Below, in pieces: positions 1,878 through 34,276 of a stretch of 64,000 bases of DNA; position 1 is the first letter of the stretch; each line of letters begins with the position of its first letter. The notes under the pieces are model-generated. The model was not told where the DNA came from and ran no database searches. It saw only the letters and a program-made list of their open reading frames with translations. The stretch lies in contig FN649758.1 of the NCBI GenBank assembly GCA_000310025.1, positions 446,261 to 510,260 on the forward strand. The letters are read 5' to 3'. A program made the position numbers and the translations under genes. This stretch comes from Ectocarpus siliculosus. Taxonomy: Eukaryota > Sar > Phaeophyceae > Ectocarpales > Ectocarpaceae.

Positions 1878-4800
1878 GGTGGTTTGGATATGGTAAGTCC
1901 GAGAAATGCCAATGTCGGGTTTAACGATCTGCCGGCCAGGGTGGGGGCAAGCAGTTGTTGAGCTGTCGACGTGACAATGCTCCGACACGGCCATCACATT
2001 GGTCCATCCTTCCGTGATATAGACTATACCGCTGTATCTGGCTCTGTACGTCGTGCGGGACTACAGACCAGCTGCGATCCTGGCCTCAGACGTAAGAGTT
2101 TGGGGTGAGGTTGAACAAGCACCCAAATGCATGCGCACAGCCGTGCTGCTGTACTACAGTAGTGACCATAGATTCGGTCCCCACGTTCATCCTCGAAAGG
2201 GCGACATAATGTCTCGTGCGGAGTAGAGATCAACATCATATCGACCAACTTAGTAGCTTTCGGCGGGAATGAGCAGTTCGGGTTCCGGCCGACGATGCTG
2301 ATCGAGAGTGCCGGCAAAGGGCTATGGTGACAGGTCCTTGTATGTCGTCTTTCTTCATTTCAAGGAATCCACTTCACTCTGTGATTACAACCCGTACGGT
2401 TGCTCCTAAACGTCGAACCGTCCATTGACCACAGAAGTTCGTCCGCAACGCCCCACTTACAACTCTCGAAAAACGGCCCTACAGCCGCACCGTCTACACA
2501 AAGCCAACGCCACGTCGTCGAGTGATGAATATCTGGATTCATACCATGGCCACAAACACAACCCAACTCCTGTGCAACTCCACGCACGGCTCAATGAGCA
2601 ACTCTGGCACATGTGCATGCGCGCGAACGGTGTATTAGGCTACCCTTCGGTACGACCGTTGTTGCCTCCTAATCAACGACAGCACTTTTGCCCTGCGGAA
2701 AAAATGCAGCGAGAGAAACAAGGAAAGCACCATCGTATTGATGTACATGTATACATATGTATATATTTGTAGTCCTCGCCCATGAGTCGACAAAACGGCG
2801 TTGTAGAGTAGTTGGAGCCCGTTGCCACTGCATTCTTCGCCTTAGGCCTTCGATACCACGACCTCTGCAACTGGGTTCTTCCAGCCGTAGTCTGCTTTCG
2901 AAAGGTCTCCCACACCATTAATGCCTCGGTGCACGTGGATGAAGCCCTCTGAACCAAGGCCATGGTTTTCCCTTGATTTAGGGCTCGCGGGACACGCCCG
3001 GCCCGGCATGCAGGTACACTTCTCGTTGTTTTTCTCGGTACCTTTGGGAAGGGGAAGGAAGAGCGGATGGCCCGTGAATCGATTCTCCGGTATTTTGTTT
3101 CATTCCCCTCGTGTGTGCGGTTGTCCGTCGTGCGGTCGTTTCGTCCACGTCCCAAATACCATTATTGGTGGGAATGGTTGCCACCAAGAATCGTTTCAAG
3201 CCACCCAGAGAATAGTTCTCGTTTTTCGATCCAGATCGGGGTATGTCGTAAAGCAGGTCACGACAGGGGGGTTTAAGTAGGATACGCAAGTGAAAGGTAT
3301 TCTTGTAGGCAATCGTGATGTGAATACAGAACATGATTTTCGATTATTCGGACGTCTAACTGCGGGACCACACGGGTCGGTGTCGACTATGGAGTATGGT
3401 CCTTGTGAAGAGCGACAGCTTCATGGCGATGACGTACGCGTTAGAAAAGTAGGCCTCATATTTCGGAATGGCGTGCGCGCGGAATCCGTGTCAGCTGTGT
3501 GAAACTCCCTTGTCCCTTACCGGCATCAAAGGCGGGGGGGAAGAGCTTGGACGGGTGCTTGTCGAGGAACTTGGATCCATCAATTCCCATGAAGGCGTCG
3601 TTGGTGTTGGCTGCGTCAACATTGGCAGTTTAATCGATTAGAATTTCGGGTTGTGAGCAGCTTCATTCGACACAGGAGTACAACCCATCTCGTAGGAGAA
3701 GGCCTGGGGGATTTCATGAAACGATGTCGAATCAGTGAGTGCAGCGAAATCGCTGAAAGCGATTGAGCGCGTACGAGCAGATGTAGCAAACGGGACGCAT
3801 GAGGCGGGGTAAGGCCGTGTTCGGCGATATTTGACGCCGATTGTAATGGTGGGATCACAGGAAAATTACCGTAGTCTGAAGCGGCGCCGTGCCACTGAGT
3901 TTCACACGTCCTGTAAAAATATACAGCCATGTGCCACCGGACTGTCTCCCTTCAGATCACCATCGGCAATTTGCCTGGACATCAACATTCACACGCCCAC
4001 AGGTTGTCCACACGGATTCAAGTTCAAATTTGCGACTTGCCGATAACGATGGGAATATGCGTCGTCTTCTGTGTTTCGGAAACTCACTGAGCTTGGCCAC
4101 CACCGAGTAGACAGGCTCCTTGCATTTGTCCGTGTCAAACGTGATTTCGCCATTCCATGTCTTCCCGGGCAAAAGGGGGCCCTCAGCCGCCGCAAAGCCA
4201 CAGAAGCCGCCCTCGCGTGTTGCGATCGCCTGTGCGTGCATCGCCCGCCGTTTTGAGAGGCGCGTAGAAACGGTGGAACGTGTGTGGGTTCCGCGTTCCG
4301 TAGAGGGAACAGCGGTATTGAAGTGTTCGGGTAGCTCCGGTGACAACACCATGCCACGCTCCGTATTGAGTCCCCCGTCCGAGCAAGAACACGGGGACAA
4401 ATAATCTCGATGGACGTTGAAAGTTCGACAGAATGAGAGGTAGGTACACATGTGAGAGCGACAACACCTACTTATCTAGACTGCCACGGCAATTGGCTGT
4501 TAGCGTGACGCGATGAATCCCTTGTGAAACCAACCAGCGACATACCATTATGTTCCGGTTGTTGCCGTCTTCTGCCATCAGCTTGATTGCGGGTCTCGCC
4601 TTCCCGCCCACGGGGAAAAGGTGACTACCCTGGTGAGTAAGAGGGAGAACGAGTGCGAGAGACGAAAAGTGTCACGCCGTTGCGGGGACTGCCGCCTGAA
4701 GCATTCATGGTTCGTTGGCAGGAGGTGAGGGCACAATATTCCAACGCAGCCCGTATATTCTCTCCACACATGGTCAGGGAATGCCTCGAGCAACACGAAG

Positions 4801-6819
4801 GACAAGTACATAGTGTTCAGGACCTGGGCACCTACCTTCTCATGCGCCACGATGATGGGGGGCGAGAAGTCCTGCTTGAAAGTCAAGTTCGTCACGCGAA
4901 CCTGTACGACGTTTGTTCATGGATTGTGTTTGGAGAGGGCGCGGCAGATAAGAACGTTGGCTGGGTACAGACATGAGAGGGAGGCGCTATCCTGACCGAG
5001 CTACGGGTTGAGGGGACAGATACCGGCACCGCCATCGACAGTGTTTGTTCAAGGCACTAATAGTTGTTGCTTCTAGCTTCAACAATGTGTGGACTGGGGG
5101 AGCTGCTGTACATTCTATGTCTCGACCCTCTGAGTACCTCGACGGACACTGATCGGCCTCCGCTATCTTCCTCACACACAACACGACCATGGCAGCTCGC
5201 CTTGTACGTCTTCATGCTGCTGCCGCTCGTCGAGCAACCGCTGGCGAGGGAGAGCATTGATGCCAAAGCGAGACCGAACGCGAAGTTGACCATCTTCCTC
5301 TTGACTGCTGTAGGTGTGATATGGTTGGCAGAATGAAGGAACAGAGGGAACAAAGGCGAAGACAGATGAGTGAGGCAGGTGATGGTGATGGGGATAGACT
5401 CGTCTGTCTCTTTGGCATATTCCACGTCGCTCACTGTGAATGCGGGTCTTGTGGAGCCAGAAAGCGCAAATCAACGTTCAGGCCTTGGTGCAGCCGAACA
5501 AAATGTATGTTCCTCAGCGTGTACGAACACACATATCGGCATGTGCTTCACGCGCGGGTGGATGTGCACATGTCAACACCACCTAGATCAGGAGACAGTG
5601 TCGTATTCCGACAAGTTGAAAACAACGCAACCCGCAGTCATCACTGCCTTCGGCGAGCGAAAATGAGATACGTTTGTCGTTTGCTGTCAAGCTCTTGCTC
5701 ACTTGCGAACCGCTGGCATACCCTCGAAGCGATTCGAACGGATCACTCATTGCGTGTACCGTGTACCACCCGCCTCACCTTTCCTTTGTCGTCGCGTGAT
5801 GTTCCACCTCGGTCGATTGTGGTGCGGGATGGCGATGCGGCTTGGGGTTTAGATGTGGTTGTGAGTCTCTGTTGTTTGTGACAGGTGGGGAAGGGTGAGG
5901 GCTCGAGGAGAGAGACTGGATCTTCCGTCGTGATCAAGATGGTTGAACCGATCGTCAGTGTGTCCCGTCATCCAAATGCATCGTTGAACTGACAACCGGA
6001 CGAATAGCGGAACTGTCAGTTTTGCCTCGCGATCGTTGAAGCGAGCCAACCCAGACGTCGACGACTTTCGATTGTGGGCCATACCCGTCTGAACGGTCCA
6101 CATTGTGCAATTACCGTTCACAGCTGGAAGACGCAGGAAATCGGTCCAAGCTTCAAGCCCGTCGGCCCTTGCCGTGAAAGTGACTTGATGATGTCAGACT
6201 CTCCGGACGACAGACAAGGCGGGGGTGTTTGGTCCCCGGATCATCGCCTCACTTTAGCTAGGCCACGTAAAACGTCTGCCGCACTCACCAAACTATTTGC
6301 TACCTTGGAGTATCGCCTGATCTCATCAAACATGAAAATAACACCCGAACGTGAAGGGTCCGTCTGTCGGGAGAATCATTCCACGTTCTCTGAGTATCGT
6401 CTGGCGCCTCAAACGTCAGGCGCATCGTGCCTTCGGAAAAACCAATGTGCCGATCTTACCCACTTCTCTAGAGGAGTCGCGCTGCGCTTGCTCCGTATCG
6501 ACACGTGAATGCCCCTCCTTGTCGCAAGGTGCCATGCTTCCGTCCCCGGGGGCAACCCGTAGAGGATTGGCATGCCGGCGCTCGATGCCGGTAGCATTTA
6601 TTGCCGGGCCGAAGGTTAAATGTGTCGACGACTTTAACACCTTGTGGAGCACTCTCTGTAGACAGGCGATGAAGCGGTGGCGCCGGCGAGTACCGAGCAT
6701 CGACTGTGACATCGACCGCCTTGGAAACCACAACCGCAAGGAACGGGCCGAGCGACAGTCCGATACAGTCGCGAAGACGCCATGAACCGGCGCTCAGCGA
6801 CCCCCTCGTAGGGAGAGCG
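1878..6819. repeat. Spondin segmental repeat, copy 1
   Basis: This 4.94-kb block lies between the inverted arms. It is collinear and almost identical with 35406-40352 and more distantly related to 41570-51345 (excluding the Copia insertion there). It holds a complete spondin-like gene on the minus strand, about 1.5 kb upstream of that gene and about 1 kb downstream of it. I see no other convincing gene in the block. Confidence 0.85.
2842..5293 (-). CDS. Secreted Spondin_N-domain protein, copy 1 (6 exons)
   Basis: Likely an extracellular protein with a Spondin_N fold. Exons on the minus strand are about 5293-5180, 4901-4836, 4629-4546, 4358-4088, 3610-3521 and 3041-2842. They join in phase into 274 residues without a stop. 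Exon 1 opens with the signal peptide MVNFAFGLALASMLSLASG. Exon 2 carries VRVTNLTFKQDFSPP and exon 3 LFPVGG...LMAEDGNN. Exon 4 carries PGKTWNGEITF, exon 5 TNDAFMGIDG and FDAG, and exon 6 TEKNNEK, a CTCMPGRAC cluster and EGFIHVHRG...WKNPVAEVVV. This motif order matches Spondin_N proteins, where such domains act in secreted or matrix proteins. Least certain are the exon 1 donor (GTGTGA after codon 38; an alternative GTACTC exists only in this copy) and the exon 4 acceptor. The pathway is unknown. Confidence 0.75.
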
Positions 6820-6822
6820 CAG

Positions 6823-8401
6823 TCATACACACTATCGTTATTCGTGTCCATGGGTACCCACGGCCACCCACGGCCCACGGGGGACCATAATGGCTTTCAC
6901 CACCACGGGGATCACAACGGGTACGAAGATTAAGCGTACTCTATAACATTGATTAGGCGGGGTCGACGAAGGCGCGGCCACAGCGAGCTGGTACACCCAA
7001 GGTTCCGTGGGAGGCTCACAGCACAGCAGTTAGTGAGTCCAGCACTATTCCAGCTCGGCGCCCGAATGTAAAGAAACAGAGGAAGGTATCTAAAGCCGAA
7101 TAAAAACAACTGAACTGGCTTGGTGTGGGCGTAGAGGAAAGCGCGGCAGTGTGCCCTCACCCAGGTCCACGGCGCGACGCTGAGGGCGTTGTCGCATCTC
7201 CCGTGTTTCGTACAGTGCACGCGCACGCCGAGGCCTTGGGCAGGTCTCTTCATCATACTTACTTGTTGCAGATTGAAACGGTACGGTGGGTTTTGTTGTT
7301 TTCAAAGCTCCAAGACGTGTCGTCTTTCCTTAGTCGGGACGAATAGGTCCCGTGGTGATCATCATGAATACCCGTCGGCACCCGTAGGGTGCTACGCCAC
7401 CGATACCAATGGATCGCTACCCACGGTTAACACCACGGGTGCCTGTGGCTACCCACGGAGACGACCATGGGCTAGCGTTAGGCATCAGTTTGGGTGCCCA
7501 TGGGTCACCATGTGTGTGGCCATGAGTCACCATGGGTACCCACGGGCAATACCCATGGGTACCCATGGGCATTGCCTGTGGGAACCCATGGGTACCCATT
7601 GGCATTCTCTGTGGGAACCCATGGGTACCCACGGGGGAATTTCACTTGGTGATGGCGCGAGTGTATCAAACATCTGCACCTAGACAAAGGAATAAACGGG
7701 AAACCACGACGCAATGAAGAGGGCCGCGGGGCGGGAAAGCTTCGGGTATGGTTTGAAACGCTTTTGTCACCTGAACGTGCACGCACGCGAATGCGTGTAT
7801 ACTACCTCGGGGAGAGATAAAGTAAGGAACAGAACGCCATTTGGCCTGCGGGTTCGCTTCGGCGACGATTTGAAACCCGGTATGTCGTGACCATCTCGCG
7901 TCCACGTGGTTGAAACCCTCTTACGCTTCTTGGGGCGGGGTTGCTTCTGCCACGACTTGAATCCCTTACCCCTTGCTGTATATGCCCCATATTCGGAACT
8001 ATTCGGCTCGGTCCTGAAGAACCACGAAGGAAACACTAACATACGTAATGACGCCACAAAAAACGATGTTGTGAAAAAATATATGAAGCCAAACACAGCA
8101 CCATAGAAAATCCACGCTCGACACCTTCACCACGAACTCCGCATCGGGCATCGTAAAATATCGTCGTTACCCTGTGTACGACGCAACAAGGAAAAAAGGT
8201 TTCGTCGGAACCAAGATATTGACAAGAAGTCGGAACCACGATGTTGACATACGCACGGCACATATCGTCCCGAGAACAGACAACACCCCCGCCAGGAAGG
8301 AAACCCATACCGGGAAACGTTGGCAATTGACAATGTCAACCGTGCAATGGGACAAAAAAAAAAAACGACAACAACGTCAACCCATTCTAGTAAACCCACT
8401 G
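6823..8401 (-). repeat. Right arm of the ~1.6-kb inverted repeat
   Basis: Reverse-complement partner of 266-1874, ending at CCCACTG (8401). It includes the mirror-image GGGTACCC array at about 7520-7640, which has fewer units than the left arm. Together the arms define an 8.1-kb unit around spondin copy 1, resembling a foldback element or a gene-capturing TIR element. Confidence 0.85.
7520..7640. repeat. GGGTACCC/CCCATGGG tandem array in the right arm
   Basis: Same palindromic units as 1036-1195 in inverted orientation, with at least one unit fewer. The copy-number difference between the arms indicates independent expansion or contraction. Confidence 0.8.
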
Positions 8402-9059: not shown

Positions 9060-10869
9060 GTTGTTGGACTCGGCGATGGAGGAGTTCCAGTAGAACTCGG
9101 GTGGGTCTTGCTGCAAGTTTCACATAAGAGGGTTGTTGTAGTCGTTTGGGTTGTTGAGGATAGAGCACGCAAGCTCCGTATGGCCCCGATAATGGAACCT
9201 GCCGGCGTCCACAGTAACGATATGCGCACAACACGGGTATTGGGTACGGCCGGGGTATGTGTTCGACGACGGTACTTCATTCCAAGTTGGAGTTCGGACA
9301 CACTGTACACGTCACCCCCAACGCCACGCAAACTACAACTTAGAACGCCCAACCTGCTGCTGTGAGTAACTTACTTACAGGGAGCACGCCCTACTTTAGG
9401 CCGAGGTGTACGTAGTCTCTCGTTGAATTGCCACGGGTGCTTTGGAAACACAGGCCCACTTGTCACGTACCGGTCGACGATCAGCATCGTTCCAACCCAG
9501 GACAGATCCCCTCGGCCGCTCAGGTAGCGGTCCAGAACGCAGGCCTTGTCGTAAAAGAGGATGGTCGGGCGTCGATCCTCATCGGGAAAAATATGTTTCA
9601 GGGCCGCGTCCACATCGGCACATCCTTCCGCCTCCAAGAGGGGCACTATCCCGCAGATGATCCCGCAAGACCAGCTCGCGGAAAGACTCCCCCAGCTGCT
9701 CTTCCTTCCTAGAATTACACGGAGCATCCTCATGTCCTCAGGCTATGTTGTCGGCACACACACGCACACAGTGACAAGGGAGGTAGGGGTTTGTGATGGT
9801 GCCGATCAATGTGGCTTAAATCCGGCTACTCCCATGCGCGCCAGATTCGTTATGATACACTCGATACCGCCACGTTCAAAATAGGTTAAACCCGAAGCCT
9901 GCGGTGTCAGGTGGGCTTCAATCGCAGGCCCTCCTACAGTGTATTCTTGGAGTACATGGTGATGTACACCCTCAACTGATGTTGGTGTGTGGACCTTCTG
10001 TCTCAAGTCCATGCGGTGTGACAAAAAACGTTCGCGTCGTCTGCCGGGCGCGTTCCGTCCTCGCCTGAGAACCCATGTCGGAGGGTTCATCCCGGCCGGA
10101 ACGCGCCTATTGTCCTGTAGCTGTGGTGGGGTTAGGAGTAGAGTGTAGGGTAAAATAGCTTGCGCTGTTGAAGGAAATACGTTGAGGTGGGTATTTCTCG
10201 CCCGTGAAGCAGAGGGGCAGTCGATGCAAAAGCCACGGCGCTTGTGCGAGAGTTTTTCGATTGGAACGTGCACACATCACGTACGGGAATACCTCTAACA
10301 TTTGTTTTTGCTGAAGCAAAAACGGCACCCCTATCGGAGCGGTTTTTCATAAAAAAAACTTCCAAAAATAAAGAACGCAAGGGGAAAGGAGTAACAGTTA
10401 TGGGGTGCTGTAAAACGGGCCAGATGAAGGAGGAGGACCCCAAGCAGCTCTGTACCTTCCAAGAACACTTCTTTTGACTCACGACGAAACAGGTAGTTGA
10501 GAAGCCCTCCCGAACCCTCTGGTGATGTAAAGACGATCCAATCACAGAGTATGCCACCGCCGCGATGGTTGTTTATGCAGAAACCCCACATCAAAAACGC
10601 TTCGTCGTAAATTGCTGTTTCGTCCTAAAGGCGGGTGGGCGTAGCATGCGTTGATTCTACGACACCTCCTGGTCCAAGAAGCGCGCTCGCTGTGCAGCAG
10701 TCCACGTAACCTCCCGGTTCCTTCTGTTGAACTCGTCCTCCTGCGCCTTGTGTGCTGTGCACGTTAGCCTGTTGTCCTCGCGATTGTTTCCGCAGGGCGG
10801 TTGTGCGACCCAGAACGCGCATTTGTGCCCGTGTACAGCAGCGTGGTCCTCGCAGTATCTGTCATTCAA
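9060..10869 (-). pseudogene. KDZ-like transposase remnant 1
   Basis: Exon-like blocks on the minus strand resemble KDZ (Kyakuja-Dileera-Zisupton) transposases with cysteine clusters. A block at about 10857-10667 holds YCEDHA, a cysteine cluster and LTCTAHKAQEDEF. Exon 9708-9471 holds CGIICGI, ILFYDKAC and MLIVDR and ends at a GTACGT donor. Exon 9198 downward joins in phase as DRFHYRGH and continues ELACS. It then holds NSSIAESNNGWL, like the N..AEQ..W segment of KDZ proteins. An in-frame TGA lies at about 9123, between LNNPNDYNNPLM and QDPPEFYW, so the copy looks broken. KDZ enzymes are DDE-type cut-and-paste transposases. Family assignment rests on motif resemblance only, and the N-terminal exons were not resolved. 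Confidence 0.5.
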
Positions 10870-11299: not shown

Positions 11300-11617
11300 G
11301 TAAATGGATTCACTGTTATAACAGTGAAATTCACTATTATAATAGTGAATGCCACTGTTATAACAGTGAACGGTCACTCTTACAACGGTGAGGAGCACTC
11401 TTATAGAAGTGAGGAGCACTCTTACAACAGCGACTATCACTTTCATAAGAGTGACGTCACTTGTATAAAAGTGATAGTCACTTTTACAATAGTGATACTG
11501 ACTGTTGTAAACGTCACTCCCCCCCACCATGAAAGTGAAAGCCACACTCACTTTCACAGACACTCCTACAACAGTCAAATCACTATTATGAGAGTCATTT
11601 CACGGTATGAAAGTGAA
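11300..11617. repeat. Array 1 of 21-bp-period palindromic units
   Basis: Fourteen or so units approximate CACTNTTATAANAGTG, an imperfect 16-bp palindrome centred on TTATAA. They are spaced about 21 bp apart in the first part of the array. The unit sequence varies but pairing within units is often kept. The array lies just upstream of KDZ-like remnant 1. Its left border (GTTCCCACATTATCGTG...GATTCACTG, 11284-11313) is shared in inverted form with array 2 at about 28500. Confidence 0.85.
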
Positions 11618-12216: not shown

Positions 12217-12510
12217 GGGTGGTCATGATGTATGCGACCGCACACCACACGCATATCTTATCACGCCGCAGCATGCTGCTAACCTTCGGTTCGGCTCCAC
12301 TCATGATGCCACGAAGGACGGGATGGGCCTCGAAGGTATGTGGGATCCTCCGCACGAGCTTGTGAGGAAGACACCGAGCATGCGATCTCCACGACGTCTT
12401 GCGCCAGGAGCCTCCGCACCACTTGCGCGAAAGTGAAGGGAGCACCGCGAAAGAAAAAGTAAGGGGGGGGTCGGTTTACGCGGGCGTGCACGAGGCCCCC
12501 AGTTGCACCG

Positions 12511-12692
12511 CTTTTCTCGATGCTTTCGAAATTTGTCATCATTTTGCGTACCCCCTTTGCTCGCCAAGGGGGAGGGGAAAAGAGCGAAGACCAGGCAGGG
12601 CAACACACCACACACGCCCCCGGTCTACTCCTTACGATCAGTATAAACATCAGCCACCCAACGGACAGAAATATATAAGAACTCTGTCTGCC
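12511..12692. repeat. Direct repeat A, outer copy
   Basis: About 182 bp starting CTTTTCTCGATGC. It is nearly identical with 13479-13658; the main differences are one substitution and a 2-bp indel after ATATATAA. Confidence 0.9.
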
Positions 12693-13268
12693 ACCCTGCA
12701 TGATAACCACACCAATTTGTTCATACTGAAACCACGAGAGAACCCCACAAGGCCCATCAACATTAACATCGCCACTCGGCGAAACACTCGGGCCACCAAG
12801 AAAAAACCATTTTCCCGTCTCTCGCTACTCTCTGTTCCCCTGACACTCCATCGCACTGCAGAAAAAAACACACATGTCGCCAGGACCCCACGTACAATTA
12901 ATCATATAATATGTACGGGTGTCCACCAATCAATCAGACTCGTAAGGCACACAACGGGGAAGCGCGCAGCACCAACGCAGCCACACACAGCAGCCAAGAG
13001 TGCACTCCCCCAACCGTGCAACGGTCCGATACACACACCAACATGCGTCCTGCATATATGAACCTGAAGTAAATGCGATACACACACATCCCATTAAAAA
13101 AAAAATGAAATGGGACGAGCACCTCGGAACCGCGCCCAGCACAGGCACACGCGACCCCGACTGCGGCTACACAGTGAATCCCCCCGACAGGCAATCACAT
13201 TGGACACAACGCCGCCGCTCCGATTTCCATGTCCACTGACACCCCCAAAAGCAAGAGTGGGTGGGTGG

Positions 13269-13658
13269 GAAAAAGAAATGTCACGGCAGAAACAACCCTT
13301 GGCCACCACAAGCACACACACGTGCTCTCGCTCGCCCGCGGTAAACACGGCGAAGCGAGTATACTGAAAACAGGAATCAACACACTCGTCCACTTCCTGC
13401 TTTCTTATTGGCCAGCGGTTTATTTCTGCCGCTCCTCACAAAACGCAGATTTCCCTTACTTCGTCAGTCAATCTTTCGCTTTTCTCGATGCTTTCGAAAT
13501 TTGTCATCATTTTGCGTACCCCCTTTGCTCGCCAAGGGGGAGGGGAAAAGAGCGAAGACCAGGCAGGGCAACACACCACACACACCCCCGGTCTACTCCT
13601 TACGATCAGTATAAACATCAGCCACCCAACGGACAGAAATATATAAACTCTGTCTGCC
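13269..13658. repeat. Internal fused repeat B+A
   Basis: Repeat B (13269-13479) runs directly into repeat A (from 13479), overlapping by one C at TTTCGCTTTT. B recurs at 15527-15737 and A at 12511-12692. A fused copy of two halves found separately at the two ends is what a circular intermediate or template switch would leave. Confidence 0.85.
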
Positions 13659-13847
13659 CCCAAACCTAAGGCTGGTGCGCCATACTGATCCCCCCCCCCC
13701 CTTTTTTCATGCGCAACATATATCGCATACATGTATGCAAAACACGCTATATGTACGACACACAATATATACGGCATACACAATGTACAGCAAAATAACA
13801 TCGGTACGACAAGGACCTCGACATACGCCACGCGCCACAGAACCCCT

Positions 13848-15248
13848 TCACACGTCACCCCATCGGGTACCCTGCCCTGGCTGTGTAGTCACCTTCTCCT
13901 TGTTCGCCAACACCTCTGACACCCACGAAGCATCACCCCCAACATTCCGAACGTAACACTGGTAACTACTCTCCCCCGACCATCGCCCTTCTCTACGAAG
14001 AAACTTCGGCGATGCACCCCCCGCCGCCAAGAAAGTTGCGCCCCCAATACGAAGGGAGTGCAGCGCGTACTCCTCGGGCTGCAAACCCGCCAACGCAACC
14101 ACTTGGCGAAGGGCCACAACAGCCTGACACTTAGTCCACATGGCCCACTGGCCCCGACCAACACCAAAAGCCACTAGAGGCGCATGCGAAGGCAGAAACG
14201 TATACAGAGAAAGCAGCTCCACCATGACATCCACTGCACCACCCCCTCGGTCGACTCCACGGCACGGACCTTGCCGTGTACGCGTACAAACCGCCCCTTT
14301 CCGAAACTGGTCCCCTTTGGACGAACGAAAACGCACCTCCACGCGATCGGCCAACGGCCACTGCGCCGACTGCAAGAGCTGGACCGCCCCCTGAAAAAAC
14401 GCCTCGTCCCCCCGACGCAACCCATGAACCTCATGCATGGACAATTTCGACACCGCAAACATCTCAGATGCTCGCGTCAGAAAGAAGAAAGAGGCACTCA
14501 GCGCAAGAAACAAAACACGCCCGCCTACGCCCCATTGAGGCACCAACGAACTCCCCTGTTGCAACATCGCCCAAGACACCGGCCGCCGCAACCGCTGCTG
14601 TGTTCCCACGTCGGCATGCCCCTGCGCCGCTCCACGTAAAGCACAACGAATCAGCGGATGCCGCGTATCAAGCTCCCCTTCACCCGACACACTATGGAAA
14701 AACTTAACAGCGGACAGGTGACTAGCAATCGTCGAATTTTGCAGGCCCAAAACGGAAAAACCATACGCGACGTACTCAACCAATTGAGCAACGACATCAC
14801 GCGGAACAGTCTCAGCAGCAATCAACACCGGCCGATACACAACGGCCACACGATGTTTCACCCAGCCTCCAAAAAGGCCCAGGTAAGTTCGTTCAGACGT
14901 TCGCGCAAGTGACTGGCGGACGAGGCTGGCCCCAGCACGGCAGAGCACATCTCTTGCCCGGCTCAATTCAACTCCACTTCCTGGTAGCAACGAATAGACA
15001 GCTCCGGGCACACACGCCCCTCGATCGACGCCCACGCCCGCCGCCGCCAACGCCGCGGCCCCAAGCGCTCGGGAACCCAGCCTTGCTGTCTCATCTACGC
15101 TCACACCAGCCACCGCAGACGACCCACCAGGGCCCTCCACGGATAAACCAGCCATGCCGTCGGTCCGCCGTGCCGCAACCACGCTGACCGCCGACCCCGC
15201 CGCGGCGGCGGCCCCAGCTGTTGCGTCTTGCTGCTGATGTTGAAGTTG

Positions 15249-15291
<43 letters not shown>

Positions 15292-15641
15292 GGCTGCTGC
15301 TGCGGCTGCTGCTGTTGCTGCGGCGGCGGGCCCTGCTGGTCCTGCTGGGCTGCCAACGCCATTGCGGCAGCCGCGCCCGCCACCGCAGCAGAGGGAGGGG
15401 CGCCGCCACCACCGCTGCTGCCGCCGCCGTCGGCGATGGAGTCATCCACCGACGTACGAATCCCGTCGGCAGCAATCGGCAGGCCCTTCCGCGATTTGGA
15501 TTCAAAGTCATATCGCCCCGGAGACAGAAAAAGAAACGTCACGGCAGAAACAACCCTTGGCCACCACAAGCACACACACGTGCTCTCGCTCGCCCGCGGT
15601 AAACACGGCGAAGCGAGTATACTGAAAACAGGAATCAACAC
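13848..15641 (-). CDS. Tyrosine recombinase with poly-Q leader and in-frame TAG
   Basis: The core frame (15182-13848, 444 residues) has tyrosine recombinase marks: arginine in LTRASEM (R237), HSLRIGG (H375, R378), GRWSGES (W401 in the second His/Trp position) and a YQCYVR nucleophile (probably Y410). These enzymes cut and rejoin DNA through a 3'-phosphotyrosine link. The same frame is open upstream to a methionine at 15641, through a glycine/alanine-rich part and a glutamine tract. It is interrupted only by a TAG (15251-15249) where the CAG run ends, so the leader and core are about 598 codons if the stop is read through or is recent. The leader starts inside repeat B. It is not a cellular XerC/D: it lies in a repeat-flanked element. 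Confidence 0.75.
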
Positions 15642-15737
15642 ACTCGTCCACTTCCTGCTTTCTTATTGGCCAGCGGTTTATTTCTGCCGCTTCTCACAGA
15701 ACGCAGATTTCCCTTACTTCGTCAGTCAATCTTTCGC
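15527..15737. repeat. Direct repeat B, outer copy
   Basis: A 211-bp copy of 13269-13479 with a few substitutions (for example AATGTCACGG against AACGTCACGG). It contains the first methionine (15641) of the open frame leading into the recombinase. Confidence 0.9.
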
Positions 15738-15746
15738 ATTGCACCG

Positions 15747-16160
15747 CAAAGGCAGCAGACAGGCCCCGCGCTGCGCGGGAGGAAGCTCCCGCGGCGTATA
15801 CGTCTTCTGACTGTTGGAGAGGGACGCACTTCCCCGGGCTCATCTTGGGTGCCTGTTGCTGGACTGCCATTGTCGGGTGAGGCGTGTTCGCTGCACTTTG
15901 GTAAGCAGCACTCCACGACTACGTTGTACCTGTACAATAGAGAGATGGACATGCTGTAGCGGCCAGTAGCGGCGATACAGGGTTAGGAGTATCGCAAGCT
16001 GATCGTCGAACGCGACGTGAATCTTGATCTGTGTGAAACGTGCCTCGCGTGTTGCACGTTGGCCGGTCTCGTCCCGAGGGAGTGCACCCCAACCAGCCGC
16101 ACCGTCGCAGCTTTTGCGCTCGAGTTTCGTACACACCAGCCTGCACACCAGCCTGTTGAT
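15747..16160. other. Spacer between the YR element and KDZ-like remnant 2
   Basis: I see no gene here. Frames are short and carry no domain. The first bases repeat the TTGCACCG flank of the YR element. Confidence 0.5.
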
Positions 16161-18996
16161 GCTTCTAAAAACTAAAGAAGAAACTGGCGACGGTGCCGCA
16201 GGTGCCCGACGTCAGTGCCTCCTCGCCGTACCTCGTAGTCCACAAATTGACTGACGCACACGCCCTCCACGTGCACGCTACCAACAGGTTGCCGTCGTCG
16301 ACATGCACAACACTCGGAGGGTGTCTCATCAGCTTAACCCTGTCTAGCTCAACATTCGACACGCACGCCACGCACGTTTTGTTGGCCCAAACCTGGCCAA
16401 ACAATCCAACATTCGCTTCGCACATGCCCGTCGTCAACTTCGCCTCTGTTGGCACGCCGCAGACGGTGTTGTGCCCCCCGGACTTGATCCAGACATGAGT
16501 TTTTTCAACCTGGCGGATATCCTTCTTCAGGAGGGTGGTTTGTTTCATGGCACGCCCACTCTAGACATATTGGTTCTGGTCGTTGCGTGTCAGCAGCAAT
16601 CCAATCTACGTCAAGACGTCAATAACAACCCGACGAGCCTGACCATGAGTAGGGCAGCAACATGACTTGTCCGTAGCGCAGTACCAGGCCCTAGTCGACT
16701 TGTGTGACAATGGGGGGGGCGTAGGGGACGTATTCTCGGCGTATCAGAGATCTCTTCCCAACGGTTCGCAAGCTGCTGCAGGATTTGTAGCGAGATCGGT
16801 GCAGTATGCTGGAGTGTTCTGCCCGAATGAGTCTTGCGACGACGTAGCCATGACAGTGACATTTCTCCAATCGACGTTTTATGGGGTGGACGAGTGCTAC
16901 CCTATGCGGCACTATGTCAAGACTTGTCGAGAGTGCGGGTCCAGTTACTACCTGAACAAACGCCGTCAGAGTGGTCCGAATGGCACAACCTGGCACGTTT
17001 TCTACCCCTGGGACCAAGGCATGCCCGAAGAAATCAGCAACAAGTCCGGGAAGTGCGTTCTGTCCGTGGCGTTCCTGATGCAAGTCGCTCTTACTCTGTC
17101 GAGGATGAGGTGGGTTCAGAAAGTGTCCCCGATATTGACACAAGGGGTACATCCAGACGGGACGCTGTTTTGTCATTGGACCTCGACTTTCGCCCACCGC
17201 AAGTTGCGTTTTTTGTTCGGCGTAACTTTTGTCCCACTGGTGCAGCTATCCCCCCTCGCTCGCAAACTCGTCCCTTGCCTCTGCCTGCAAGCTTTTATTT
17301 CTATCGTTGACACTGCGTTGACGTCCGCTGACACTGTCCCCTCGTACCCCCTCGTTTCTCGTATCCCCTCGGTTTGTCGCCGACCTCATGTCAAACAACC
17401 CCCCCAACCAGAGTCGGCTTCACTGCCATCTGCAACGTCTGCAACGATACAGTCTTGCGTGATCGAGGGCACGGATCGCCACCGCTGGCGGTTGACACGC
17501 TCCTGGAGTGTTGGTCGCTCCTGGCGACTCTGAAAATGGCGCAAGGCGTAGGTGCGTATCTGCATTGCATTGTCGCGGGCGTGGCCATCACAACACTGCT
17601 GGGATACGCATGCCAGTACCCGTCTCGACTGTTTCACAGGGTAGAGCACTCGCTGTGTCGGCGGATAGACGGTGGTGCCGTGTTGGTGTACCTTGTTGGC
17701 ATCCGAATGAAACGGGACCACCAAATGTGGCAAGTTTTGGTTGTCCATCGCACTCGAAGCTGGTTTCCCTTTGCTTCGCCATCGTTGGATGATGCTCATT
17801 GCACACTATTCTCTGTTTTCCGTATTGCTGCAGCTTGACTGCGCTCCCCTGACTTCCTTGTGCGATTTATTGCGACAAAGGTCCCCGGCTAACCTTCCCG
17901 CCGGAAGGGTTGACCCTTGTCGTGGGGAACCCAAGGTTGGTATGGGTCCGAGACATCGACGGGGAACAAAGCGGGGCAAATCATTGGAAGGGTCTCCGTG
18001 AGTTGATGGCGGATCAAAACGAGGGTTTCTGGGAGAACGTGGCTTGGCACAGGCACAGCTGCGACCTCTGCCGCCAAACACTCGAGGTCGACGGGCAGCT
18101 GTGTTCCATTAAAGCGGCTGTGATCGACGGCATCACCAACACCCGGGGGGCCTGCTGTGCGGTGCATGAGTGCCCCCATGATCTGCCCAACCTCAGTGGG
18201 GCCAGGTGAGGAGTAAGAAATCGGGTACGTCGCCGATTTGCGAGTGTACTTCATGAATACATACCTAACAGGGACTCCGGAATTCGCGGTTGCGCTTTGC
18301 GCGATGCTGTTGGTAGGGAGACGTATTTCAGACATGTATCGGTGGTTTGCTGTCGCTCATGAGCTCCGTTACGCGCTTCGGCGGTAAGCAGTTTATCTTT
18401 TGGCGGTTGCAGCAAGTCCAACACTACGCTAAGTAAGTTGTTAAACTGTATCGTTTCATACGTTTCGTGTTATCTGTGTTCCCTTATGCCACTCTCCTTG
18501 AGCGGTGTGTACCCTGTTATTCGCACGTCTGACGTGTAGGCGTGCATGCATGCCTCGAACGCCGTCTCTTATGTCGACTACTACAGCCTGCACTTCCCAG
18601 CACTTGCATCCTGCGAATTAAGCCCCCATCCTTGCCGTCGCAACCGACACTGCCGCCCCCGCCTGTTCTCTAACAAACCCAAGGTTTTGCGAGCACCACG
18701 CTCCTATCTACGAACATCGCTGCACCGTTACCTCCCCCGAGTGCCTCAACGACCATGAGGATGGGAGCTTGGCCTGCGCAGATCACGCTGACATGGAAAG
18801 GCGGTGGGAAATTTTCAACAACTTCGGAGACTACCGGCGCAAGCAAAGGATGCGGACTGCTGGCATCGAAGTGGAGGTATGTCCGACGTACGCCCTTCCT
18901 GGTACACAACTTATATAATCTGTTGGTGTTTGTGATGTTTTCAACCAGCAGGGCGTGTGTCTGTCTATCGGGCGTGTGTCTGTCTATCGGCGTGCC
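16160..18996 (+). pseudogene. KDZ-like transposase remnant 2, 5' part
   Basis: Plus-strand exon-like blocks resemble cysteine-cluster modules of KDZ transposases. Around 16800-17110 it reads CPNESC, then HYVKTCRECGSSYYLNKRR, TWHVFYPWD and FLMQVALTL, like the CxC5 module. At 17930-18209 it reads DIDGEQSG, HSCDLCRQTLEVDGQL, AAVIDGITNTRGACCAVHEC, like CxC6. At about 18691-18876 it reads HRCTVTSPECLNDHEDGSL, CADHADMERRWEIF and FGDYRRKQRM, ending at a GTATGT donor. The Copia insertion at 18997 falls in the intron after this donor. 17200-17860 has no assigned exon. It is paralogous to remnants 1 and 3. Confidence 0.5.
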
Positions 18997-19558: not shown

Positions 19559-21570
19559 CTACAGAAGCTCCGGCAAATTCATCAGCTTTTTCCGGTGGTA
19601 CTGCAGGTTGCTCTTGCTAAGAGCCTTGGTGAGCATGTCTGCATGTTGCTCCGACGTCGACACAAACTTGATCGAGATGTCACCCGACCTAAACAATCCA
19701 CGAATGAAGTGGTACCGCACGTCGATGTGCTTGCTACGCGCTGAGCTAAGGGGGTTCTGCACCAAGGCCATGGCCCCCTGATTGTCCTCAAGGACCTGAA
19801 TGCTACCGCCACTGGTCTCTGGGGCAATAAACGAGAGCACTGCACGCACAAACAAAGCTTCTTTCACACCCTCTCCTGCAGCAATGTACTCTGCCTCCGT
19901 AGACGACAAAGATATGATAGCTTGCGTCTTGCTACCGTGGCTGATGACGGTTCCTCCAACCGTTGTTGCCAGCCCTGACACCGAACGTCTATCCTCAGCG
20001 TCGGCGTAGCTAGCGTCCACGTCCACCGCCAGCCCCAGCCCCGATCCCCGTTTATAGGTGATCCCGAGGTCCCTCGTCTCTTTGAGGTAGGCGAGGATCT
20101 TCCGTATCGCCTTCCAGTGCCTCTCGGCAGGGGCATGGGCGTGGCGCGCTACCGCACGCACAGCGAACGAGATGTCCGGGCGCGAGAACGTCGACACCCA
20201 CATCATGCTGCCGATGGCCTCCCTCACCGGCCACTCCCCTCCACTTTCGTCATCTCGCTTCGGCCCTAGGTCGGCACCAGGGGAAGCAGGGATGGGGGAG
20301 GTCGATTGCACATCAAAGCGATTCACGATGCTGTCAATGTACGCGGTTTGGGAGATTCTAAGGGTCCCAGCCTCTAGGTCTCTCTCAACGGCACACCCGT
20401 CGAACCACACACACTCTCCAAGGTCTTTGGTGGGGAATGCCTTGTTGAGGGAAGCGAGCAACTCCTTGCAATCATCATCAGACCCAGCCACCAAAAGGTC
20501 ATCCACATAAATCACGATAATCATCACCACGACATCGTCTTTCATCTTGCGGAAGACGCACGGGTCCGCCTTGCACTGCTCGAACCCGTTTTCTACAAGC
20601 GTGTCGGCAGCGTGGTACCCCCACTGCCTGCCGCTCTGCTTCAAGCCGTAAATAGCACGCTCAGCCTTCACAACTTTGTGGGATTTTTCCCCGCACCCCG
20701 CGGGGAGCCTCAAGAACACATCCTCGTCTAACTTAGCGTGTTTAAACGCCTGCTTGACATCCCAGTGGTTGAGTTTCAATGATTTCTCATTGGCTACCGC
20801 AAGCATCAGTTTAATGGATGCGGATGATGGGCAAGGGGAGGATGAGTAGAAGTAGTCCACATTCGGAATTTGCGAAAAACCCCTAGCGACCAGACGCGCT
20901 TTGAACTTCTCGATTTTCCCCTCCTTGTTCGTCTTCCAAGTAAAACGCCACTTAGAACTCACAGGTCTACGCCCCTCTGGCGTACCGTCTACGAATGAAA
21001 ACGTTCCCGTGTCCAAGTGCCCATCGAACTCTTCCCTCATGGCCTGTTCCCACCCCTCTCTGTACACAGACTTGGAAACGCCGGCTACGGTCATGGGGGG
21101 GGATTCAACGTCACTCGGACGCTTGCCTATGGGGGATTCTGTACTCAGCTCGGTCGACGCCAGGGCCCTCACGAAGGCGTCTGGAGAGTTGAGCACGAGG
21201 TCCTCCGCTCCCAGCAGGAAGTCCTCGGCCTCTTGGCGCGCGATGTTGGCCTCCTCCGCGCGCTCGCACAGCAGCGCTTGCACCGCCCTCGCCTCTAGCC
21301 CTTCCACCACGTCGACCACACACGCGAGCATCCAGTGGGTGTACTCCTCCGTGCTGTTGATGGGCAGGGTGGGCAGCCCGGCCGCCGATGCATGGCGGGC
21401 GAGCAGACCTTCGGCACTCGTTGACGACTCGTACCTCGTGTTCCGGCGAGGGTTCTCCCTGAGTCGGCGGCTGGTGAGTTCGGCCGGCTCGCCAAAGCGG
21501 GCGAGCCTCCGTTCCTCGGGCCCGCGGAGCGCCGGAATATCCGTGTCGCTGCCGCTGTCGCTGCCGCCAC

Positions 21571-21613
<43 letters not shown>

Positions 21614-21955
21614 GCCGCCACCGCGGCTGCTGCTGCTGCTGCTTGCTGCGGCGGTCGTCCTCGCCGCCGCCCACATCGGCCATCCCGGTCGACGTGGTAG
21701 ATGGGGCGACGCTCGCGCCCTCCCTGCTCGAGGGGGCGCCATCGCCAGCGTCGCCCGCGCCCGACTCCTGGGGCGCGGCCGGCGGCGGCGCCGGCGCATC
21801 GCGCGCGGGCGGCTCCGCGGGCCCCGGGTTTGCCGTCGTGTCAAGGTGGAAACCTCCATCCTTAGGTTCTCCCTCCGCCCTCCCTCCACCGTGGCATGAC
21901 GCACCCCCCCCGCCCTCGTGCTCCCCAGTCGTGAGCTCCTCGTCCTCCTCTGCAA
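19559..21955 (-). CDS. Copia 1 reverse transcriptase-RNase H polyprotein part
   Basis: A 798-residue open frame. The first ~150 residues are low complexity (R/S/G) because the frame crosses a CAG/CTG tract at 21565-21650. The true upstream reading frame is the overlapping one at 22205-21111, which supplies YEMWHG and the integrase C-terminus. Copia reverse transcriptase follows: WRFTWKTNKEGKIEKFKARLV, DVKQAF, the LYGLKQ-like IYGLKQS and the catalytic IYVDDLLVAG. RNase H has DVDASYADAEDRRSVSG, SLSSTEAEY, EDNQGAM and KHIDVRYHFIR. RT and RNase H look intact and would copy element RNA into DNA. Confidence 0.85.
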
Positions 21956-23390
21956 TGGGAGGCAGCGGCTGGGGGTGCGCGGTCGGGACGGTGGGCACAG
22001 ATTGCCAGGTGAAGTTGCGAGTGGTGATCGCTTGGCGTTTTTCGTTCAGGATGCGCACGCAATCACGGTTTGTGTTGATTCCAGGGCCGAGGTAAAAACA
22101 CTTTTTTGCTTTCGGCTCTGACTTGTGCGTGCGCTTGACCTTGGATACGGCGGGTTTGAGGAACGGGTACGTCGCCTCTGGGGGAGGTGGGTGCCCGTGC
22201 CACATTTCGTACGGCGATTTCTTGTCCGGGTTGGATGTGGTGGAGGTGCAGTTCAGGGCGTTGCATGCCCAAGCTGTGGCTTCGGCCCAAAGGGAGGGGT
22301 AGCTTGGTGCTTCGGGGTAAAGAATCGGCGCTTGTATGCGGGCGGCTAGTGCTGCATCCTTTATCAGTCCCAGTGCTCTCTCAGCTACACCGTTGTATTC
22401 TGGGCTGTATGCGGGGGTGAACTCCTGCTTGATGCAATACTTGCGGCACAGCTTTCCGAACTCTCCTCGAAAAACTCTCCTCCGTTGTCAGACCGCACGA
22501 CCATGACCTCGGATGGGGCTCCGTCTGCCCTGTTTTCCGCTAGGTATCTCCCGAATGCCTCTGCAGCGTCTGACTTGTTTTTCAAGAAGTAGACGCGATT
22601 CCACCTCGTGCAGTCATCCCTTACAATGAGAGTGTACCACTTCCCCCCCAAGCTCTGCACCCTTGCCTTCCCACTCAAATCCACGAAAACTCTCTGCAGT
22701 TCTTAACTGCTCGGGTTGACGTCCTGTTGGGGATGGGCTTGGATAGCCCCTTTGCCGTCGAGCACCCCATGCACTCCCGGAGCTGGCCCACCAGCGTCAC
22801 TCCTTGCTGCTTCGCCGTGTTCTTCAGCAGCACCTCGTGGGAGTGGCCGTGCGCGCAGTGGAAGTCGTTGATGTCAACGGGGGTGCGGTTCGCTTTCGCG
22901 ATACCAGGAGCAATGATGGCACAGGCTAGTTCCCTACCCGACTCTATGCGGTGACCAGTCTGAACGAACAGGTCCCCCCATAGAGGGAAGTACACCTACT
23001 CCCCCCCACCAACGAACACCTCCAACTCGTGCTCGTCTGCGGCTAAGCGGCCCTTGGTTTGTTTCAAGAGGGCTGTGAGGGACACGAGGTTGTAGTTGAG
23101 CTCTGGCACATGAGCGACCCGTTTCAACAACAGGTCTGTGGTCCCAACGCGAGAACCGATGGTCACCCTCACGTCGCCATACCCTACGATGGCGAAGGCT
23201 TGCTTCCCTGCGGCGACACTCAAACGTCGATCGCACTCATGGTAGTTGTCGAACGCGTTAGCGCTCGGGAACATGTGGTTGGTTGCGCCGGTATCGGCCA
23301 CAAACCTTTCTTGCCTGGCCTGCTCTACACCCCCTCGATCAACGACTCTGTTCCACTCGCCTGTGAAGTCACGGACCACTAGCGCCTCCT
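21111..23390 (-). pseudogene. Copia 1 integrase region, frameshifted
   Basis: The integrase is spread over at least three frames. A zinc-binding part reads FHCAHGHSHE and CMGCSTAKG, then runs to a stop after REFSWI. Re-entry by frameshift gives DLSGKARVQSLGG, LIVRDDCTRW and VRSDNGGEFFE. A further shift is needed before the frame with YEMWHG and FLKPA at 22205. The DDE core is recognisable but cannot be read as one protein in this copy. Some shifts may be sequencing errors near the gap. Confidence 0.75.
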
Positions 23391-23394
23391 CTGC
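22676..23394. repeat. Gap-flank duplicate, left copy (probable assembly artefact)
   Basis: These 719 bases appear again at 23882-24600 directly on the other side of the N run, apparently without a difference. An exact duplicate abutting a scaffold gap is best explained as unmerged contig ends. It creates a false tandem copy of the protease/integrase start. Confidence 0.9.
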
Positions 23395-23881
23395 NNNNNN
23401 NNNNNNNNNNNNNNNNNNNNNNNNNNNNNNNNNNNNNNNNNNNNNNNNNNNNNNNNNNNNNNNNNNNNNNNNNNNNNNNNNNNNNNNNNNNNNNNNNNNN
23501 NNNNNNNNNNNNNNNNNNNNNNNNNNNNNNNNNNNNNNNNNNNNNNNNNNNNNNNNNNNNNNNNNNNNNNNNNNNNNNNNNNNNNNNNNNNNNNNNNNNN
23601 NNNNNNNNNNNNNNNNNNNNNNNNNNNNNNNNNNNNNNNNNNNNNNNNNNNNNNNNNNNNNNNNNNNNNNNNNNNNNNNNNNNNNNNNNNNNNNNNNNNN
23701 NNNNNNNNNNNNNNNNNNNNNNNNNNNNNNNNNNNNNNNNNNNNNNNNNNNNNNNNNNNNNNNNNNNNNNNNNNNNNNNNNNNNNNNNNNNNNNNNNNNN
23801 NNNNNNNNNNNNNNNNNNNNNNNNNNNNNNNNNNNNNNNNNNNNNNNNNNNNNNNNNNNNNNNNNNNNNNNNNNNNNNNNN
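23395..23881. other. Assembly gap (487 N)
   Basis: Run of N inside Copia 1. Open frames spanning it are not real. Confidence 1.
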
Positions 23882-24600
23882 CAAATCCACGAAAACTCTC
23901 TGCAGTTCTTAACTGCTCGGGTTGACGTCCTGTTGGGGATGGGCTTGGATAGCCCCTTTGCCGTCGAGCACCCCATGCACTCCCGGAGCTGGCCCACCAG
24001 CGTCACTCCTTGCTGCTTCGCCGTGTTCTTCAGCAGCACCTCGTGGGAGTGGCCGTGCGCGCAGTGGAAGTCGTTGATGTCAACGGGGGTGCGGTTCGCT
24101 TTCGCGATACCAGGAGCAATGATGGCACAGGCTAGTTCCCTACCCGACTCTATGCGGTGACCAGTCTGAACGAACAGGTCCCCCCATAGAGGGAAGTACA
24201 CCTACTCCCCCCCACCAACGAACACCTCCAACTCGTGCTCGTCTGCGGCTAAGCGGCCCTTGGTTTGTTTCAAGAGGGCTGTGAGGGACACGAGGTTGTA
24301 GTTGAGCTCTGGCACATGAGCGACCCGTTTCAACAACAGGTCTGTGGTCCCAACGCGAGAACCGATGGTCACCCTCACGTCGCCATACCCTACGATGGCG
24401 AAGGCTTGCTTCCCTGCGGCGACACTCAAACGTCGATCGCACTCATGGTAGTTGTCGAACGCGTTAGCGCTCGGGAACATGTGGTTGGTTGCGCCGGTAT
24501 CGGCCACAAACCTTTCTTGCCTGGCCTGCTCTACACCCCCTCGATCAACGACTCTGTTCCACTCGCCTGTGAAGTCACGGACCACTAGCGCCTCCTCTGC
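23882..24600. repeat. Gap-flank duplicate, right copy
   Basis: Identical partner of 22676-23394. This copy continues directly into gag, so it is the one joined to the element's 5' half. Confidence 0.9.
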
Positions 24601-26063
24601 CACGTCCAGTGCGGTGGCGTCCAAGACCGGCATCTCCACCGCGAGCACCGCCTGCTCGGACGAGCACGTGCTCTTGTCGTGTCCGTAGCCCAGGCACTTC
24701 TCGCATCGCAGGGGCTCGGGCTTGGTACAGGCGGCCGCCTGGTGACCCTTCTCTCCGCACCGGAAGCAGCGGCCGTGCATGCTACTTGCACCGCCGCCGC
24801 CGCCTCCGCCGCTGTTGCCACCACCACCGCCCCCACCGCCCTTGCTGCCACCGCCATTCCCCTTCTGGCCGCCACCACCGCCGCCGCCACCCTTGTTGCG
24901 GCCGCCGCTGCTGCGGCCGGGCGCTCCACCCCTGCTGTTACCGTCGCTCGCGAGGAAAGCATGCTCCGCCTTGTGCTGGCCCTTCGGGGCCTTCCTCCCC
25001 TCCGGGAGGCTCGCGTGCACCGTGCTTACGATCCTGACGATCTCGCCCCTGTCCAGCTTTGTCGCCGTCTCCAACAGGAACTTCGCTTGTTGGTACTCGG
25101 GTGGAAGCGAGTCGACGAAGTGTGCGAGGACAAATGGTGTGTCAGCGTTGAGCCCCTTTTCGCGTAGGCGCATGTATATCTGCTCGAGCTTGCTTAGGTG
25201 CTCGATTGGATTGCTGCTGCTGTGTGCCGGGATCGAGAAGCGGAACATCTCTTTCATCAGGGCTTGTTTGGATCCCTGCGACTCGGGGTCGTAAACTTTT
25301 TCAAGCTCCGTAAGGACCCCCTTCGCCGTCACACAACCACTGACGACCGCTTTGTCGGTTTCTTTCACCACGGCGGTAGTGATGAAGTGGAACGCGGCGA
25401 GCCCACGTGCGACCTCGCTCCTAGTGTAGCGCAAGTCGTTGTAAAGTGTGGAGGTGGGCATATTCGGGTCGCCCACGGGGGCATGTCTCTCAGTACTCCC
25501 GATGAATTGACCGTCTAGTTCCACGGTCTTAGCGGCCTGGATGAAAGCTTTTCGCCACGTGCTAAATCCACTGCTGCGACCCCCCTCAAGGCGAGGGGCC
25601 ACCACGTTCACTTTCTTCGAGTGATTGAAGCTATCGATGTAATCACCGTTACCACGAGTTGCGGGTATCTCACCTGGGGGGTTTAACCCCCTCGCTTCCC
25701 CGCGGTCAGCTCCTACGCCAGGCCCCACTCTCGCTGGAACCCCAGGACTCGCTCCCGGTATGTTGTCCCAGCGGCTTTCCCGCGGGTGATTTGGCCCATC
25801 ACGGGCCGCTTCCCGGGAAAATGCCCCGCCCCCCTCTGACGGCAAGGACTCTCTCTGGCTTGGGACGGCAGCACCGCCGCCCCTACTGGCATCGCCCGCC
25901 ACGGCGTCGCCAGGCTCCTTCCTCTTAGCTCCATTACTATGCTCATCAGCTGCGATAACTGGCCCTCCAGTCTCGCAATCGCCGGGTCCTCGGCGTGTTG
26001 CTGTTGCATGGCTGAGGTCTCTTCCCCCAGCCCTTCGACCGAACCGCTGTCCGACACAGCCAT
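24202..26063 (-). pseudogene. Copia 1 gag and protease
   Basis: Gag probably starts at 26063 (MAVSDSGSVEGLG) and shifts frame near 25900 into the long frame 25902-24202 (566 residues). That frame has a UBN2-type gag core (FSTWRKAF, PIEHLSKLEQIYMRL), a Gly-rich stretch, the CCHC knuckle CFRCGEKGHQAAAC and the protease motif FVADTGATNHMF. It ends at a TAG right after a run of G (GGTGGGGGGGAGTAG). The next frame carries on as VYFPLWGDLF, so a shift at the G run would fuse gag-protease to integrase. Confidence 0.8.
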
Positions 26064-34036: not shown

Positions 34037-34276
34037 TGTTCGTGTGTGCATGAGCGGATGAGAATATTCCAACGGGACTGTAGGAATTGGCTACGCAGAT
34101 AGGAATTGATAGTCCCCTGGGTTGGTTTCATTGTTGATCCACGGGGCTCGACCCTGCGGGAGTGCTTGCTGTGTCGTGGCACTCTCTCTCTCCCGCCGCG
34201 TCCTGATCGTGTCTGCTGTCCTAAATACAAGTGATACCATCATCTTCAACACACTTACAAGGGTATACTAACAACA
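34037..34276 (+). repeat. Probable truncated Copia 3' end (LTR-like)
   Basis: AAAGAACCAGGGAGGG (34021-34036) followed by TGTTCGTGTG matches the polypurine tract and LTR start of Copia 1 and Copia 2. A plausible LTR end is CTAACAACA (34276), giving about 240 bp. No second LTR or coding part is present. Confidence 0.45.

Follow-up and report, generated by a model that had tools for sequence, protein, structure and literature searches.

The window, as we call the whole stretch of 64,000 nucleotides analysed here, carries an element of 3226 bp (12512..15737, coding strand minus) that very probably derives from a Ngaro-like tyrosine-recombinase (YR) retrotransposon by internal deletion and is non-autonomous. 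This reading follows from full-length relatives that lie between the same repeats, from the clade of defective copies in which the window copy falls, and from a loss of the reverse transcriptase (RT) and RNase H (RH) stretch that a 201-base search found in the window copy only. The original prediction had offered a deletion derivative mobilised by a relative as one option, and this fits what we found, because relatives with RT-like, RH-like and YR frames are present in the same genome and the window copy groups with defective ones. A new class, another of its suggestions, is ruled out by the full-length relatives in the same genome.

Layout and recombinase of the window element

The ends of the element are taken from five uninterrupted sites and from the ends of other copies, and they lie nine bases inside the bounds first proposed (12503..15746). 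The predicted B-YR-AB-A layout is real, with both repeat pairs and the abutment of inner A and inner B recovered by repeat comparison, which aligned 12509-12678 with 13477-13646 for B and 13269-13482 with 15527-15740 for A. On the minus strand, the outer copy of repeat B (12512..12681) is the element's 3' end in the coding direction and agrees with the inner copy of B (13480..13649) at 166/170 positions; the outer copy of repeat A (15527..15737) is the 5' end, and the inner copy of A (13269..13479), which adjoins inner B at 13479/13480, equals it at 148/150 positions over the final 150 bp. The B pair spans ~170 bp at ~99% identity and the A pair ~211 bp at ~98%, and judged by these lengths and by identities of 98-99% the repeats lie far beyond chance. 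The inner border at 13479/13480, CTTTCGC|TTTTCTC, consists of the two outer ends of the element joined to each other, as would be expected of a circle junction. A circle junction at such a border belongs to the published model for the group, in the DIRS-1 account (PMC5633606).

An open frame of 466 codons (13848..15248, minus strand) fuses the end of a Gag-like N-terminal part to a tyrosine recombinase, as read from the frame itself, its motifs and weak Cre/Tre profile matches. Alignment places the catalytic-type residues, all on the minus strand, at 14472-14474 (R), 14316-14318 (K), 14058-14060 (H), 14049-14051 (R), 13980-13982 (W) and 13953-13955 (Y), and these six residues of the R-K-HxxR-W-Y series are invariant across four sequences (the window, L047, L051 and the YR in L044), down to 38% identity. 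When a profile of these four YRs was compared with the PDB, all 17 matches at E up to 10 fell on the HS-R...W...Y stretch and were Cre or Tre, the best with an E of 0.017. The L051 and L044 recombinases also gave sub-threshold integrase or tyrosine-recombinase matches in NCBIfam and PHROGs. The YR search against Pfam returned a sub-threshold, unrelated match only (Cel124_C), the single-sequence search of the window YR against the PDB led nowhere, and an AlphaFold model of the window YR alone failed (mean pLDDT 33). The recombinase is called from motifs together with the weak Cre matches, and the putative RT and RNase H of the relatives from motifs only. Related YRs were also seen at C460:212740-213819 and C241:79233-80312, within open frames of 1112 and 1341 codons and in frame with the neighbouring sequence.

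Full-length relatives and the defective clade

A query with the A-B border found at least 53 genome matches (40 of 94 candidates scored), and 20 stretches with relatives were fetched for comparison. L035 (6568 bp) and L037 (6733 bp) are complete from outer end to outer end, and the order in the full-length relatives is A-[Gag-like, RT-like, RH-like, YR]-B-A-spacer-B. The search for full-length relatives that had been proposed thus yielded copies of ~6.6-6.7 kb with Gag-, RT- and RNase H-like frames and a recombinase frame between the same repeats. The RT-like frame of L035 contains the motifs IDVREAFRQV, FGWRSSP and YYVDDG and its RH-like frame FADASKTAFGAY, LRGDNEASVAW and HVPGVLNSLADGISR; both sets are read through in this copy, and we take them to stand for RT and RNase H. 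YVDD is present in 7/7 copies examined (L035, L036, L037, L041, L042, L046 and L047). The absence of reverse transcriptase noted originally consequently holds for the window copy but not for the family, which has relatives with an RT-like frame. The YR frame has 392 codons in L036, L037, L046 and L047 and is cut short in L035; it overlaps the RH-like frame in the relatives, including L035. In the copies compared the Gag-like, RT-like and RH-like frames are out of one register, and the Gag-like frame of L035 shows a sub-threshold CCCH finger. Profile searches recognised little of these frames: the RT-like frame had no Pfam or NCBIfam match above the cut-off and no convincing PDB match by sequence, with one irrelevant match from an RT profile, and the RH-like frame had only a sub-threshold Pao peptidase match in Pfam. 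An RVT_1 search of the genome (150 of 1041 candidates scored) gave matches that are not tied to the Ngaro-like family described here.

Deletion borders were placed on L035, counted from base 1601. By this reference the window copy is without about 789-2052 and 2178-4236, so that most of gag and all of RT/RH are gone, and it retains both outer ends, the inner A|B border and the open recombinase frame. The approximate border of the gag-body loss (789/2052) lies at 15106..15109 on the minus strand and is common to L031, L032, L034, L039, L040 and L049; the gag body is absent from L031, L032 and L034, and L033 is truncated before it. A further loss (2909/3273), shared by L031-L034, L039 and L040, takes out the YVDD codons: L031-L034 are all without the 363 bp that hold YVDD, and in L039 and L040 the stretch is present twice, with the other copy (2936/3194) retaining these codons. 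In a tree of 17 recombinase stretches the window copy joins L033 with support of 98/93, within an L031-L034 clade supported at 100/100, and on this evidence the window copy belongs to a clade of copies that were already defective. The repeat pairs of L032 are identical (170/170 for B and 150/150 for A), and defective members therefore seem to have moved recently, presumably helped in trans.

Several other derivatives were observed in passing. L048 (4895-5286) and L050 (2689-3061) are reduced to a minimal B-A form, 392 and 373 bp long, and the borders of L048, L050, L038, L044 and L043 begin near the end of A; borders of this type look like the product of joining short cDNAs to A. In L047 and L049 there is only one B and the inner A is missing, which is what recombination between the two B copies would be expected to leave.

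Loss of the RT/RH stretch

The loss specific to the window copy is joined at 14980..14981 (minus strand), and the missing stretch measures 1862 bp in L031, a member of the same clade. Copies that keep the stretch show a splice-like pattern (CAG|GT...AG|G) at its borders, the unspliced kin reading CAG|GTGATG...GGCAG|G, and across the junction in the window copy the reading passes from Gag-frame codons into the YR frame unshifted. We consider it probable, by a modest degree, that the window copy lost RT/RH through reverse transcription of a spliced RNA. About evenly balanced is the wider proposal that the recombinase of the family is made from a spliced RNA joining the Gag/pol N-terminus to the YR frame, of which the window copy would be a fossil: the spliced message would have been copied into DNA, circularised at the A|B border and integrated by a recombinase from the same family. 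A spliced leader would account for the ATT that L037 has in place of ATG beside the acceptor and, in the YR frame of L051, from a subfamily at ~69% DNA identity, for the lack of an ATG in the first 64 codons after the upstream stop. Other features carry little weight in this question. A pattern search found CAG|GT and GCAG|GAAG in 12/12 fetched copies spanning both sites, but these copies are ~95% alike, so the shared pattern adds little; and the acceptor CAG is kept in L051 but lies within the RH-like frame (Trp-Gln), so its conservation says nothing for splicing.

The loss could also be an ordinary DNA deletion through the 4-bp CAGG microhomology at the junction, or a template jump by RT, with the GT...AG appearance arising by chance, and to this we give a smaller though still substantial probability. 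Nine deletion borders were inspected, and the eight others do not fit GT-AG against L035, as a plain deletion would lead one to expect; splicing was accordingly rejected for the shared deletions 789/2052, 2909/3273 and 2936/3194 and for the borders of L038, L044, L043, L048 and L050. The single joined place points the same way: a 201-base query matched whole only in the window, with no second joined RT/RH junction (37/37 candidates scored, in a DNA search that can miss copies), and its halves matched at 18 places for the recombinase side and 13 for the Gag side, every Gag-side match being 1.9-3.1 kb away from one of those on the recombinase side, while at five diverged places the match covers part of the recombinase side. 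Against chance stands the rarity of the pattern among equivalent microhomologies. When all pairs 300-4000 bases apart that share a microhomology of exactly 4 bp were counted, with a consensus chosen after the border was seen, GT..AG was allowed by 503/33,188 in L031 and by 524/34,205 in L032, and AG|GTRA..YAG by 17/33,188 and 15/34,205, respectively. The in-frame fusion of Gag to YR and the start codons of L037 and L051 likewise argue against a plain deletion. Whichever way it arose, the loss may have occurred either before or after insertion. No report of splicing in a YR retrotransposon was found in the literature searched, at the level of titles and abstract openings; if splicing is true, it would offer an explanation for the expression of the overlapping recombinase frame in elements of this kind.

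An autonomous, recombinase-only DNA element of the Crypton kind, using its own YR, is highly improbable as an explanation of the window copy. The window copy resembles a Crypton in having a YR and no RT, and in favour of this reading its YR frame is open and neither the inner A|B border nor either outer end has been lost; yet it descends from RT-bearing relatives, the 201-base search found no second copy of the window form, the Gag start and the glutamine tract are in different frames, and a TAG within that tract (15249..15251, minus strand) ends the Gag-like frame. Cryptons are not known to have split direct repeats or an RT-bearing parent, and the window copy has both, so a Crypton was rejected as its class.

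Insertion sites

TTGCACCG stands just outside the window element at both edges (12503-12510 and 15739-15746), and this had been taken as an 8-bp target duplication produced by a staggered cut. A 200-base query across the site found it uninterrupted in nine other genomic places (C113, C241, C151, C9, C10, C16, C158, C6 and C472), while the window locus matched as two halves. Five of the nine were read (C113, C151, C9, C10 and C241), and in all five contigs the empty locus reads CAGTTGCACCGCATTGCACCGCAA, with TTGCACCGC and ATTGCACCGC in tandem; C9 has one base changed just past the 10-bp tandem. In the window the left half of this tandem, TTGCACCGC, lies at 12503..12511 and the right half, ATTGCACCGC, at 15738..15747. 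Compared with these sites, the element sits exactly between TTGCACCGC and ATTGCACCGC, with no base gained or lost. C113, a paralogous contig without the insertion, matches the right flank for ~1.5 kb at 97% identity and the left flank in pieces (~490 bases at 87% and 98 bases at 97%), and its empty site reads CAGTTGCACCGCATTGCACCGCAAAGG. A genome search of the surroundings showed that 17600-18400 and 9900-10700 of the window are also repeats and that a query with 23600-24400 matched a Copia repeat; the surroundings are repetitive, and C113 is therefore one among several paralogous places.

Since the tandem is found in the uninterrupted sites, it is older than the insertion. The duplicated TTGCACCG is thus present as predicted, but it did not originate by insertion, and a staggered cut with target duplication has a vanishingly small probability, its one support being the edges themselves. 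It would be saved only if the uninterrupted copies were precise excisions that had left the duplication behind. The apparent contradiction of a tyrosine recombinase producing a target duplication is removed.

Other insertions of the family lead to the same result. The joined flanks of eight out of nine copies (L031, L032, L035, L037, L038, L047, L049 and L050) were used to search for empty sites, which were found for three, with one empty copy read for each: L031 (C100), L038 (C48) and L037 (window 34037-34149, minus strand). For L031 and L038 the junctions agree exactly with the empty copy, no base having been duplicated or removed. L037 has CGC at its left junction where the empty copy has CTC, again with no duplication, and further single differences occur in the same comparison; it is as if an overlap had taken the element's base, or the change may be a plain difference between repeat copies. 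Other copies and empty sites had been named as the check on the predicted duplication, and copies lacking a TTGCACCG-like duplication as evidence against it; both were found. For L032 and L035, all 40 candidates scored (of 122) were targets of L031; for the remaining copies (40 of 145 candidates scored) the search gave half-matches only (L047), the own locus only (L049), or the own locus together with a short neighbouring piece (L050). Empty sites are now given for four insertions of one Ngaro-like family.

Among the flanks from 21 sources, T is the second base of the right flank in 13/13 recognised right ends (T frequency in the window 0.231), and no position of the left flank is invariant among 17 recognised left ends. 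A T at the second base downstream is a possible target rule, of the form N|NT. Insertion without duplication is not universal in the family, because L033, a 5'-truncated copy, has the 4-bp CACC at both ends and the window's own unoccupied sequence has CACC once; L033 perhaps followed a different insertion route. The same copy (4426-8148 of the fetched L033 stretch, from C113), the closest relative of the window copy, lies ~95 bases from the same site in the paralogous repeat, in the opposite orientation.

The window holds other repeats and frames. A Copia-type element at 19559-25902 (minus strand; RVT_2, Pol_BBD twice and a sub-threshold gag) contains a direct repeat (22676-23194 = 23882-24400, at a spacing of 1206 bases) that is found in at least 38 further genomic places (40 of 98 candidates scored), and a second Copia-type RVT_2 frame of 870 codons lies at 47509-50121 on the plus strand. 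Short palindromic units (CACT..TATA..AGTGA) form an array over 11311-11516, most of them spaced ~21 bases apart, and a 410-codon frame with FNIP repeats lies at 30053-31285 on the plus strand.

Proposed origin and comparison with known systems

For the window element, we propose that its RNA would have been reverse-transcribed by the proteins of a full-length relative and the cDNA closed into a circle with the junction CTTTCGC|TTTTCTC, which a recombinase of the family would then have exchanged with an N|NT target that matched it poorly. With the same modest preference as above, the RNA would have been spliced beforehand, from a donor in the N-terminal stretch of pol to an acceptor where the recombinase frame begins.

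The family fits the Ngaro-like group by its repeats and the order of its frames, and also in lacking a methyltransferase domain and in inserting without duplicating the target. Read on the minus strand, the window copy has split direct repeats in the order A1-[ORFs]-B1A2B2 and a tyrosine recombinase with R, K, HxxR, W/H and Y. The window copy has no RT or RNase H; in the full-length relatives both are recognised, by motif only, on the YR strand and upstream of the YR frame. L035 has no methyltransferase domain between RH and YR, and the overlap of these two frames leaves no room for one; a PAT-like assignment was rejected on this ground. Ngaro-like elements are not known to duplicate their target on insertion, and here the window copy, L031 and L038 are exact and L037 has one base changed, the truncated L033 being the exception. 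A DIRS1-like assignment was also rejected, as A and B are direct repeats and the repeat listing holds no inverted terminal pair with an inner complementary region.

Among described systems, the Ngaro elements of Cafeteria burkhardae, as presented in PMC8547959, have the arrangement A1-[ORFs]-B1A2B2 with Gag-like/RT/RH followed by YR, and deletion variants without ORF1 and isolated repeats have already been described for them. The Ectocarpus family is similar in its split direct repeats, in the order of its frames and in having such variants and isolated repeats in the same genome; it differs in that the RT there is reported as PF00078 whereas the RT-like frame here has no Pfam match. Further differences from Ngaro are the missing RT/RH of the window copy and the sub-threshold CCCH finger of L035. 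In the definitions of PMC4157794, Ngaro-like inner repeats lie downstream of YR, and the PAT-like elements (Pat1, Toc, Kangaroo) share split direct repeats and a YR with our family but differ in their methyltransferase domain. VIPER/TATE, as described in PMC6681497, have A1 ... B1A2B2 repeats and three frames, similar to the elements found here, but are known from kinetoplastids. For Ectocarpus itself, the survey in PMC12477816 gives 15 DIRS/Ngaro families and 5 PAT-like families, a genome rich in YR retrotransposons, and similarly we find at least 107 YR matches in the genome (105 of 603 candidates scored), of which 80 show 41-46% identity.
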